Shown piece by piece: positions 34,272 to 42,103 of a DNA stretch of 64,000 bases. The notes under the pieces were generated by a model. That model did no database searches and was not told the origin of the DNA. It worked only from the letters and a program-made list of their open reading frames with translations. The first letter of the stretch is position 1. Every line of letters begins with the position of its first letter. The position numbers were made by a program, and so were the translations under genes. Origin of the DNA: Gloeobacterales cyanobacterium ES-bin-313 (GTDB taxonomy: Bacteria > Cyanobacteriota > Cyanobacteriia > Gloeobacterales > Gloeobacteraceae); NCBI GenBank assembly GCA_014379585.1, contig JACMLN010000125.1, forward strand, positions 1 to 64,000, given 5' to 3'.

Positions 34272-34612
34272 AGTTTCATTCTCTTTATTAGCCTTCGCTA
34301 TTCTGGCACTGTTTTTTTGTCCCTCGAAAATTACAAGCTGCACCGGGATTTACAGTTTGATGACTTCAGGACTCAAAAAGAATCATGGAGATTTCATTGT
34401 TGGTGCTGGTAGGTCGCAACCGGTGTATATCGTTTCAGCATTGTCTTCGCTATCGGATTTGAATGAAACGACTAACTGGGTACCAATTTAGAAATGCCTT
34501 AATGTTCCGTTATCCTTTCATTAATCTTGGCGGCCTACGATTCTGTCTAGACTCAACGTATGTTTCTGGAGTTCCCCTGTCCGCAGGATTGTCAGACTCT
34601 AAAGGAGAATTG
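34272..34612. other. Intergenic, divergent promoter region
   Basis: 341 bases between purB and the PEP-CTERM gene. A frame opens from 34463 across part of it but has no ribosome site or signal peptide of its own. I see no RNA or repeat. The promoters for both flanking genes should lie here. Confidence 0.4.
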
Positions 34613-35194
34613 GTGAAAAAAGTACTGGTAGCTTTGTCCCTAGGTTTAGCTGTAGTGAGCAATCCAGCTCAGGCAGCTACTTTTAATGAAGTTGAAAGCA
34701 ACGATACCCTGGGCACTGCTCAGAGCTTGGGTAGTTTGGATACCGCCAACGCAGTGAATGCAAGTCGTATTGGAGATTCTTCTGCGGATTACTACAGCTT
34801 TAGCTTGAATGCTGGCGACACTGTGACCTTTGAAACCGCCACTCCTGGCAGTGTAGGCGATACGGTCATTGCCTTCTACGGTCTTGGACAAAATCTTCTT
34901 GCTCTCAACGATGATGGCCCTGTTTTTCCAGCCTCGGCATTGTCCTTCACAGTCGCTAGTGCCGGAACTTACTACCTTGGTGTGGGCGATTTTGGTGATA
35001 TCAACTACGACGGTAATGGCACCATAACATCCCTGACTGGGGATGTTTTTGCTGGTGGCGGTGATTCCTACAGCTACACCCTGAACATTGGCATTGTGCC
35101 TCAGACTGTCCCTGAACCCACTTCGATGACAGGTATGCTCCTCTTGGGGCTGGGTGGTATCGCCACTCGCTACAAGAAACGCCGAAATCATTAG
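34613..35194 (+). CDS. PEP-CTERM anchored protein with pre-peptidase C-terminal domain
   Basis: A 193-residue exported protein. The start is GTG at 34613, five bases after AAGGAG, and gives a clear signal peptide ending NPAQAA. The mature part is a PPC-type beta-sandwich (FNEVESNDTLGTAQSLG to about residue 160), with a short DDG-containing turn. The C-terminus is a PEP-CTERM sorting signal: VPEP, a hydrophobic helix and a KKRR-like basic tail, recognised by exosortase. No exosortase lies in this window. Likely a surface or matrix protein. Confidence 0.9.
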   Translation: MKKVLVALSLGLAVVSNPAQAATFNEVESNDTLGTAQSLGSLDTANAVNASRIGDSSADYYSFSLNAGDTVTFETATPGSVGDTVIAFYGLGQNLLALNDDGPVFPASALSFTVASAGTYYLGVGDFGDINYDGNGTITSLTGDVFAGGGDSYSYTLNIGIVPQTVPEPTSMTGMLLLGLGGIATRYKKRRNH

Positions 35195-37958: not shown

Positions 37959-38306
37959 ATGCAAGTACGCAATCTGCTTGGTTTGATGCTCATCTTTGCT
38001 GCCACCACTATTGGTGTAGCGAAGGCCGACGTAGTCCAAACGACCGTCGGTATTCAGCAAAACTCCCAGTCCCAATACCTCGAAGGCCGTGGTTTTCAAA
38101 CGGGAGTCAGTGTTCAAAACATGGGACAAAGACAAATGGCACGTCCTAGTTTCCGGGGTGAAAATATCCAGCAGACAACGGCAGGTGTGCAGACCACTGA
38201 ACAGGCTCAAGCGGGCTACGGTCGCGTCAATCAAGCGCTCACCGATATGCGCAACCTCCAACAGCGCCAGTACTCAAATGGCTACAACCCCTACAACCCC
38301 CGCTAA
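37959..38306 (+). CDS. Small exported Gln-rich repeat protein (cluster gene 1)
   Basis: 115 residues. ATG at 37959 is set by GGAG seven bases upstream and yields a signal peptide ending VAKAD. The mature protein has three imperfect copies of a motif like (V/F/I)QTxVGxQxxxQxQ: VQTTVGIQQNSQSQ, FQTGVSVQNMGQRQ and IQQTTAGVQTTEQAQ. The tail is rich in Asn/Tyr/Pro (SNGYNPYNPR). The repeat is reminiscent of curlin repeats but with one extra residue between the Gly and the Asn. I do not recognise a named family. First of four similar consecutive genes. Confidence 0.75.
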   Translation: MQVRNLLGLMLIFAATTIGVAKADVVQTTVGIQQNSQSQYLEGRGFQTGVSVQNMGQRQMARPSFRGENIQQTTAGVQTTEQAQAGYGRVNQALTDMRNLQQRQYSNGYNPYNPR

Positions 38307-38319
38307 GGAGCGTCATTCT

Positions 38320-38649
38320 ATGTTCCGCTCATTTATCGGTGGATTGGGATTGGTTCTTGCTCTGAGCGGCATCGCCGAAGCTGGCACCATCGAAGTTAGC
38401 CCTTCTGTCCAAACAGGGATCGGCATCCAAAATGCCCAGCAGATCCAACTGGGCTATGGGGTTCGCCAACAAAGTGGCACGCTCACACAACAACAGCCCC
38501 AGTATCAGTACATCTCGCCCGCTCGTAGTGGCTCTCGCTATAGCTATCCTGGGCAGACCGATATTCGCGTCAATCCGAATGTCCAGACTGGTATCGGTGT
38601 CCAAAATGCCCAGCAGATTCAACTGGGTCTGCCAGAGTTCTCGCGCTAA
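38320..38649 (+). CDS. Small exported protein with two near-identical curli-like repeats (cluster gene 2)
   Basis: 109 residues. ATG at 38320 follows AAGGAG by nine bases and 13 bases after the previous stop. The signal peptide ends IAEAG. The repeat VQTGIGIQNAQQIQLG (about residue 30) recurs as VQTGIGVQNAQQIQLG (about 88), preceded by SPS and NPN respectively. The spacer is Gln/Tyr/Ser-rich. Regularly spaced Gln and Gly are as in amyloid-forming curlin. An extracellular fibre subunit is a plausible inference. Confidence 0.78.
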   Translation: MFRSFIGGLGLVLALSGIAEAGTIEVSPSVQTGIGIQNAQQIQLGYGVRQQSGTLTQQQPQYQYISPARSGSRYSYPGQTDIRVNPNVQTGIGVQNAQQIQLGLPEFSR

Positions 38650-38669
38650 CCCTCTGTCGTGTTTCTCAT

Positions 38670-38695
38670 GCGGGGGCATCATCTCCCCCGCTTTT
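38670..38695 (+). terminator. Internal hairpin with T tract between cluster genes 2 and 3
   Basis: A perfect 7-bp GC stem (GCGGGGG 38670-38676 with CCCCCGC 38685-38691) and a run of TTTT directly after. It sits between two genes on the same strand that appear to be one operon, so it probably acts as a partial terminator lowering expression of genes 3 and 4. Confidence 0.75.
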
Positions 38696-38712
38696 CCAAA
38701 GGAGTTTCTCTC

Positions 38713-39051
38713 ATGAAAGTGCAATACCTCGCTTCTCTCACCTTTTCAGTCGTTCTTTTGAGTGCTATCCCTGCTGCCCATGCGGGTCGGATTGTCATCC
38801 CGGTTTACCAAAGCCAAGTTGGTGTCAACAACGGTACCCAAAATCAATCAGGTGGCTACGGAAGCACCCAAACGGGTGTTCTTGACCAATCCAACCAGCA
38901 GTCTCAGGCTGTCAATGTGTATGTACCGGACAACTATCGTGGTAGTGTTCGCACCATCTATCTCAATGGCGGCGAACCATCCAGTGCTGCTCGGGGTAAT
39001 TCGTTCTACAACCGCCGCGACGGAAAAGGATTCCAGCCCAAACCCCGTTAG
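38713..39051 (+). CDS. Small exported Gln-rich protein (cluster gene 3)
   Basis: 112 residues. ATG at 38713 with AAAGGAG eight bases upstream. A signal peptide ends AAHAG. Repeat-like segments YQSQVGVNNGTQNQ and TQTGVLDQSNQQSQ match the cluster motif loosely. A C-terminal basic region (NRRDGKGFQPKPR) follows a short domain around NYRGSVRTIYLNGG. A longer frame from 38659 is excluded because it would run through the hairpin. No named family. Confidence 0.75.
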   Translation: MKVQYLASLTFSVVLLSAIPAAHAGRIVIPVYQSQVGVNNGTQNQSGGYGSTQTGVLDQSNQQSQAVNVYVPDNYRGSVRTIYLNGGEPSSAARGNSFYNRRDGKGFQPKPR

Positions 39052-39063
39052 GAGGTTTTTGTG

Positions 39064-39369
39064 ATGAGACGTTCTCTTTTTGGATTCTGGGTTGTTATCA
39101 GCTTGCTCTGGGCCTCCGATGCCAAAGCCCAAGTCTCAGTCCAAGTTGGAAATGACGGTGATGTCCAAGTATTTACCAGTGACAGCAATGTCTCGATCGT
39201 GAATGGCCAAGTGCTCACCACCAACGGCGGCACTACGGTTATTCAGCGCAGTTACAGCTACCAGGGCTACGGCAATCCCTACAATCGACCTTTTCGGCGC
39301 AAACAGCGCACTATTGTCCGCAGCCGTTCTGGGATTGTGGACCAGTCTGTTCTGATCGATGTGCGATAG
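39064..39369 (+). CDS. Small exported protein (cluster gene 4)
   Basis: 101 residues. AGGAGG at 39050-39055 overlaps the stop of the preceding gene. ATG at 39064 is eight bases away and the GTG at 39061 five bases away. The signal peptide ends AKAQ. The mature part begins VSVQVGNDGDVQVF and continues with beta-prone segments (NVSIVNGQVL, GGTTVIQRSY). The YGNPYNRPF segment echoes the NPYNPR tail of gene 1. Less repeat-like than genes 1-3. It may be a capping or nucleating subunit, which is speculation. Confidence 0.72.
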   Translation: MRRSLFGFWVVISLLWASDAKAQVSVQVGNDGDVQVFTSDSNVSIVNGQVLTTNGGTTVIQRSYSYQGYGNPYNRPFRRKQRTIVRSRSGIVDQSVLIDVR

Positions 39370-39390: not shown

Positions 39391-39477
39391 GGAGAGATGG
39401 CCGAGTGGTCGAAGGCGCAGCACTGGAAATGCTGTATAGGGGCAACCCTATCGAGGGTTCGAATCCCTCTCTCTCCG
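39391..39477 (+). tRNA. tRNA-Ser (anticodon GGA)
   Basis: An 87-base class II tRNA. Acceptor GGAGAGA pairs with TCTCTCC, with discriminator G. The anticodon arm CAGCA-CTGGAAA-TGCTG places GGA at the anticodon (reads UCC and UCU). A long variable arm and the T loop TTCGAAT on a GAGGG/CCCTC stem complete it. The 3' CCA is not encoded. Confidence 0.97.
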
Positions 39478-39541
39478 CTTCGTCCTTTTGCTTCTAGGTT
39501 AATATTGGGTAGCATCTTTTCACCCATCCTGGAGCAGCGAA

Positions 39542-41598: not shown

Positions 41599-41662
41599 CA
41601 AGTCTCCAGTGACCTAGTAAGCTAACATCAACTTGCATTTCTACACATTGGAGGTTACTCGG

Positions 41663-42103
41663 ATGCGTAAACTTTTAGTGGCCGCTCTCGTCGGTGCTTT
41701 GCTCATTGCAGTCAATGTCTCGGCAAAGACTGTCACCGGTCCAAAAGGCAGTACAGCCACAGGTTCCAAGGTTGTAGTTCCAAATAAGCAAGGTGGTATG
41801 ACTGGGGTTGTCACAGGTTCAGGGACTGGGGCAAACGGTGGGACTGCCAGTGGCCAAGGCCAAGGGTCTACCAATGGCCAAGGCACGGCAACCTATAGCG
41901 GCAGTGGCACAGCTAGTACCCCCAAAGGAAGCAGTGTTACTGGCACAACGAGCGGCAGCAGTACCTACCAAAGCGGCTCCTATAGCGGCAACAATACAAC
42001 AACGGTGAACGGCAAGACAGTGACGACCACCACAGGTAATGGCTCAGCGACTGTGACCACAGGTCAAGGAACGAAAACGCTCACCCCCCCGAAGAAACCC
42101 TAG
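41663..42103 (+). CDS. Exported Gly/Ser/Thr-rich protein, unknown
   Basis: 146 residues. The start ATG at 41663 follows GGAGG by eight bases, giving a signal peptide ending NVSA. The mature chain is low complexity: Gly, Ser, Thr, Asn and Gln with few charges apart from Lys near both ends (KTVTGPKGSTATGSK and TLTPPKKP). Threonine-rich runs include TVTTTTGNGSATVTTG. It resembles matrix or cell-surface glycine-rich proteins. No family recognised. Confidence 0.65.
   Translation: MRKLLVAALVGALLIAVNVSAKTVTGPKGSTATGSKVVVPNKQGGMTGVVTGSGTGANGGTASGQGQGSTNGQGTATYSGSGTASTPKGSSVTGTTSGSSTYQSGSYSGNNTTTVNGKTVTTTTGNGSATVTTGQGTKTLTPPKKP

Follow-up and report, generated by a model that had tools for sequence, protein, structure and literature searches.

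The locus analysed here, in the genome of Gloeobacterales cyanobacterium ES-bin-313, contains four consecutive genes for small exported proteins, three of which have a recurring glutamine motif, and raises the question of whether they belong to the curli system, to some other secreted matrix or fibre, or to the cell envelope without forming a fibre at all. In the following, the whole analysed stretch of 64 kb is referred to as the window, and the four genes as g1 to g4.

Gene organization

The genes g1 (37959..38306), g2 (38320..38649), g3 (38713..39051) and g4 (39064..39369) are located head to tail on the forward strand, with intergenic gaps of 13, 63 and 12 bp, and form a tight operon. They encode exported proteins of 115, 109, 112 and 101 amino acids, of which the first two are glutamine-repeat proteins, while the third has a single copy of the repeat and, in addition, the conserved segment QxVNxYxP. 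A Shine-Dalgarno-like site precedes each gene (GGAG, AAGGAG, AAAGGAG and AGGAGG, respectively), and all four proteins have a Sec-type N-terminus, as judged by eye and with a crude script for hydrophobicity and A-x-A motifs. The gene positions, ribosome sites and signal peptides given in a preliminary description of this DNA were thus all recovered. Across the whole 64 kb, g1-g4 are the sole exported ORFs of less than 230 amino acids in which glutamine and asparagine account for at least 15% of the mature protein.

A GC-rich hairpin (GCGGGGG / CCCCCGC; 38670..38691, forward strand) is predicted in the gap of 63 bp between g2 and g3, and hairpins of other sequence are predicted in the same gap in five relatives of the family. 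The z-score is -1.9 in the window and ranges from -1.3 to -6.3 in four relatives, with a strong value in one only, which is suggestive of a hairpin kept across the family. Such a hairpin could raise the level of the g1-g2 transcript, as is often seen for structural subunits. A promoter scan returned nothing.

Downstream, a gene for tRNA-Ser (GGA) at 39391..39478 on the forward strand marks the boundary of the system, of which it is not a part. Directly upstream lies a gene for an exported type I phosphodiesterase (PF01663; 35380-37656), a homolog of which (52-53% identity) is found at the same place in the genomes G001, G003, G004 and G005; in G002 and G006, no homolog was observed next to the operon. 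The window also contains a gene for a PEP-CTERM protein with a pre-peptidase C-terminal (PPC) domain at 34463-35194 and, 2 kb downstream of the operon, one for an exported Gly/Ser/Thr-rich protein of 156 amino acids (41633-42103) with no family match.

A glutamine repeat in the first three proteins

The proteins g1-g3 have in common the frame Q-x5-Q-x3-Q-x-Q (QTGhGhQNxxQxQ), which occurs in seven copies in total, all encoded on the forward strand. In g1, the repeat cores are located at 38037..38075 (residues 27-39, QTTVGIQQNSQSQ), 38097..38135 (residues 47-59, QTGVSVQNMGQRQ) and 38172..38210 (residues 72-84, QTTAGVQTTEQAQ), at distances of 20 and 25 residues, and a degenerate fourth repeat with R in place of the second Q can be read from the translation at 38232..38270 (residues 92-104). 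In g2, the cores are located at 38410..38448 (residues 31-43, QTGIGIQNAQQIQ), 38470..38508 (residues 51-63, QSGTLTQQQPQYQ; degenerate) and 38584..38622 (residues 89-101, QTGIGVQNAQQIQ), and the single core in g3 is at 38869..38907 (residues 53-65, QTGVLDQSNQQSQ). No copy of the frame is present in g4. The two nearly identical copies previously noted in g2 both exist, but the middle copy at residue 51 had been overlooked because it is degenerate.

Shuffling of the mature proteins yielded a mean of 0.20 copies and a maximum of 4, and none of 20,000 shuffles reached seven, which confirms the earlier observation that the three proteins have a repeat in common. The spacing Q-x5-Q-x3-Q-x-Q ranks first among all 364 triple glutamine spacings of up to 14 residues, and in 0 of 300 shuffles were seven copies obtained with any such spacing. 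Every row tested among the relatives contains the frame, with two or three copies in g1, three in g2 and one in g3, and the invariant residues are mostly Gln, Gly or Asn. Distances between glutamines are even in 65% of cases, as compared to 50% in the shuffles (6/5000), and this preference would fit glutamines placed on one face of a beta-strand.

We compared the profiles of the mature proteins with hhalign, using 60 column-permuted controls for each pair. The scores were 36.9 for g1-g2 (control maximum 15.8), 31.9 for g1-g3 (control maximum 17.9) and 21.3 for g2-g3 (control maximum 18.5), and none of the 60 controls reached the observed score in any of the three comparisons. These profile scores indicate that g1, g2 and g3 are mutually related beyond what is expected from their composition.

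Conservation and distribution

All four genes were identified in the same order in 5 of the 5 other family genomes examined, including Aphanocapsa lilacina HA4352-LM1 and Gloeobacterales ES-bin-141. Homologs to g1 are present in all family genomes (60-67% identity), homologs to g2 in all family genomes and in G006 (61-71% identity), and homologs to g3 in the whole family as well as in G006, G027 and G062. In G006 (uncultured cyanobacterium PMM_0068), g1-g3 are present and the contig ends there. Two genomes from outside the order contain all four genes, G027 together with a second, diverged locus and G062 together with an extra g3-like gene; g1-g4 are absent from both genomes of a third family of the order. 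Searching further early-branching cyanobacteria for this gene order, as had been suggested, was thus successful both within the family and at larger distances.

The gene set is under purifying selection, with dN/dS values mostly between 0.08 and 0.2 for the closest genome pairs and between 0.08 and 0.15 for g2 among the three closest genomes. It is ancient and conserved. According to the preliminary description, a lack of homologs with conserved repeat spacing would reduce the genes to a low-complexity set that arose by chance; the homologs clearly keep the frame. We found no point in support of such a chance origin, which is refuted by the conserved gene order, the purifying selection and the repeat statistics, and its probability is negligible.

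The second, diverged set in G027 (locus L029, contig C18, 8899-12835) consists of genes for a repeat protein, a g2-like protein and a gene-4-like protein, and is followed by a gene for an outer-membrane efflux protein of the TolC family (PF02321), through which export might take place. In G027 (L028, 8049-8462, minus strand) and in G312 (L072, 7605-7952, plus strand), a small exported protein of similar appearance is encoded next to the operon, in opposite orientation to it, and the one in G027 has no Pfam family.

The operon itself encodes no dedicated secretion pore, which would be consistent with periplasmic proteins of an unrelated role, for example in stress, metal or outer-membrane homeostasis, that are rich in glutamine by coincidence. 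The TolC-family gene next to the paralogous locus in G027 would also suit a role in the envelope. Such a coincidence is difficult to reconcile with a repeat that is regular and conserved across diverged lineages, and we consider this explanation improbable.

Relationship to curli

Curli, like the system in the window, are built from small Sec-exported repeat proteins rich in Gln, Asn and Gly that are encoded in an operon and have a period of about 20 residues, and glutamine ladders are a possible further feature in common. On these grounds, g1 and g2 might be homologs of CsgA and CsgB that are secreted through CsgG, and among the repeat proteins of the wider operon described below, some carry QxGxGN arcs and match CsgA above permuted controls. 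The details of the repeat differ. The spacing in curlin repeats is described as Q-x-G-x2-N, with a minimal repeat of X6-QxGx2N-X10 (PMC3521004), whereas the spacing of the motif in the window is Q-x-G-x4-N and not, as previously suggested, that of curlin with one added residue. The QxGxxN motif occurs 0 times in g1, 0 times in g2 and once in g3, and the single occurrence is consistent with chance. Moreover, the curlin kernel N-x-Psi-x-Psi-x-Q and arc XGXX, for which a repeat period of 23 +/- 5 is given in a second survey (PMC10192328), are out of register in the window proteins.

Profile searches gave the same result. The curlin profile PF07012, proposed earlier as a check, has no match in the genome of ES-bin-313 and none over the cut-off in the 30 operon genomes, with a positive control in E. 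coli. In no comparison did g1-g3 score higher against the profiles of CsgA and CsgB from E. coli K-12 than the best of the column-permuted controls, and profile kinship of g1-g3 to a curlin-spaced set of proteins (c7) was likewise at the control level. CsgG (PF03783) is absent from all six family genomes and from G006, G027 and G062, with positive controls, and in the 4 of 30 operon genomes that contain it, the gene lies at a large distance from the operon or on a different contig. Since the tests of PF07012, spacing, CsgA/CsgB and CsgG all fail, we reject curlin membership of the window genes, and the likeness to curlin noted in the preliminary description is not supported as kinship; that the operon encodes true curli is very improbable.

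Gene 4 and a wider cyanobacterial operon

In the relatives, gene 4 encodes a protein of ~185-205 amino acids that has two parts, a beta module at the N-terminus and a jelly-roll-like domain at the C-terminus. In the window, an in-frame internal deletion has removed the central/C-terminal jelly-roll-like domain that is kept in other gene-4 relatives, and what g4 retains is the beta module at the N-terminus together with the last strand (GIVDQSVLIDVR vs GIVNQTILVTLR; alignments A4 and A9). The C-terminal domain, hereafter C, is encoded in the operons of G001-G005, G027 and G062 and absent from the window, and no copy was found elsewhere in the genome of ES-bin-313 (assembly 96% complete). The model of gene 4 from ES-bin-141 is mostly of low confidence, with a beta-rich C-terminal half (mean 50), and a Foldseek search with this low-confidence model gave zero matches at E <= 0.001. 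A CsgC-like chaperone was considered as a candidate for g4 and found to be unsupported (hhalign probability 2%, no PDB sequence match). Sequence searches of the PDB produced nothing meaningful, whether the query was g2, its family, the curlin-spaced set or the C domain.

Single members of the C domain match sugar-binding jelly-roll models weakly (GH2_N, E 0.003; rhamnoside_JR, E 0.0025). These matches would suit non-fibrous proteins of the matrix or envelope that, as monomers or small oligomers, attach through their repeats to polysaccharide, to peptidoglycan or to the surface of the outer membrane, while gene 4 supplies a partner that binds carbohydrate. The basic or Arg-rich tails of several g3 proteins and repeat proteins point in the same direction, as does the surface-protein context, to which the exported phosphodiesterase and the PEP-CTERM protein belong. 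Stacking would account for the strict Q-x5-Q-x3-Q-x-Q register and for the paralogous subunits better than a binding site would, and we regard non-fibrous proteins as a rather unlikely solution.

The C domain was identified in 50 of 390 cyanobacterial genomes, representing 23 of 160 genera, as part of a wider, unnamed operon that encodes proteins with glutamine repeats (A), a small beta protein (B), a protein with cysteines (D) and the jelly-roll-like domain itself. It is flanked on the same strand by genes for small exported proteins, namely one to three A proteins, B, D and sometimes a coiled-coil protein (E). The A proteins have the conserved pattern Q-x3-Q-x5-G-x2-N-x3-Q-x3-Q, B corresponds to the N-terminal module of gene 4 standing alone, and D, a two-cysteine protein, is present in 42 of 380 genomes and adjoins C in about 32 of these by coordinates, with none in the Gloeobacterales. 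Within 3 kb of C on the same strand, 54 exported Q/N-rich ORFs were counted in 124 kb, as compared to 4 in 81 kb on both strands further away. Among the A, C and D proteins that were scanned, none has a convincing match in Pfam or NCBIfam.

The gene-4 family scored 26.0 against B in hhalign, with a control maximum of 13.5 and 0 of 40 controls at this level. In the Gloeobacterales, gene 4 is a fusion of B and C, and this fusion argues that B and C work together. Both domains of gene 4 link the set in the window to the wider cyanobacterial operon, with which it also has in common the exported glutamine-repeat neighbors on the same strand. In contrast to the wider operon, the set in the Gloeobacterales lacks D and has another repeat spacing, and the kinship of g1-g3 to A is weakly supported, with hhalign probabilities of 18% for g1, 14% for g3 and <1% for g2; despite the low probabilities, g1 and g3 exceed all 40 controls, while g2 is marginal. 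For this comparison, only hand-checked members of family A were used, as the iterated HMM had drifted into B and D proteins.

At three loci of the wider operon (L073, L075 and L077), the C domain is accompanied by paired exported proteins that contain three or four QxGxxN arcs with the spacing of curlin. Against CsgA, these proteins exceed 40 permuted controls (hhalign probability of 11%), but they score below the cut-off for PF07012. The likeness to curli is thus stronger in these distant relatives than in the window, and may be due to convergence.

A putative glutamine-ladder matrix

The genes, their operon order, the repeat, the selection acting on the set and the wider family are established by the comparisons above. 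We propose that the operon is dedicated to secreted structural proteins that form a glutamine-ladder matrix or fibre independently of CsgG, a proposal that has about an even chance of being correct. The strand geometry, assembly, location and role of g4 that we infer are as follows. The Sec-exported g1-g3 would serve as repeat subunits in which glutamines alternate along beta-strands, with the Q-x5-Q-x3-Q-x-Q spacing placing them on one face. Having crossed the outer membrane by a route other than CsgG, these subunits would probably assemble by stacking, with their glutamines arranged in ladders, into a fibre or sheet outside the cell, as part of its surface or of a biofilm matrix. The g4 protein, with an N-terminal beta module that is widespread as a separate protein, may be an accessory, and the jelly-roll-like domain of gene 4, lost in the lineage of the window, probably caps or anchors the fibre or links it to polysaccharide. 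Modeling of g2 with AlphaFold2 from four sequences (pLDDT 41) produced no strands and no usable model. A secreted matrix or fibre of glutamine-repeat proteins is the most likely role of the operon, the balance for and against it being roughly equal.

A broader reading is that cyanobacteria produce unrecognised, CsgG-independent secreted fibres with glutamine ladders, in the deepest-branching and in many later lineages, equipped with accessory beta-sandwich and cysteine proteins of their own, and that the set in the window is the form found in the Gloeobacterales. Taken as a whole, this reading is tentative and on balance doubtful.

Comparison with known systems

The preliminary description knew of no named system with this layout, and neither g1-g3 nor the set as a whole matches any of the family databases searched. 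The operon is real, conserved and undescribed in the libraries and literature searched. In the literature found, its closest functional analog comes from Synechococcus elongatus PCC 7942, namely the operon for the EbfG proteins, which carry a double-glycine-type leader. Like the system in the window, EbfG1-4 are small exported cyanobacterial proteins encoded by an operon of four genes, and several of them form amyloids in the matrix (PMC9981879). The two systems are set apart by description, as the hotspot motif of the EbfG proteins is A-Phi-N-I-Pi (PMC9981879) and not a Gln-Gly repeat, and the signal peptides in the window are of the Sec type according to a crude predictor. In the literature found, EbfG is the one amyloid matrix from cyanobacteria with experimental support (PMC9981879), and the consulted sections of two curli surveys do not report curli in this phylum (PMC3521004, PMC10192328). 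If the proposed role is true, the operon would represent a second, more widespread candidate matrix system in cyanobacteria, which spans the deepest cyanobacterial branch and, by its accessory domain, about an eighth of the sampled cyanobacterial genomes.
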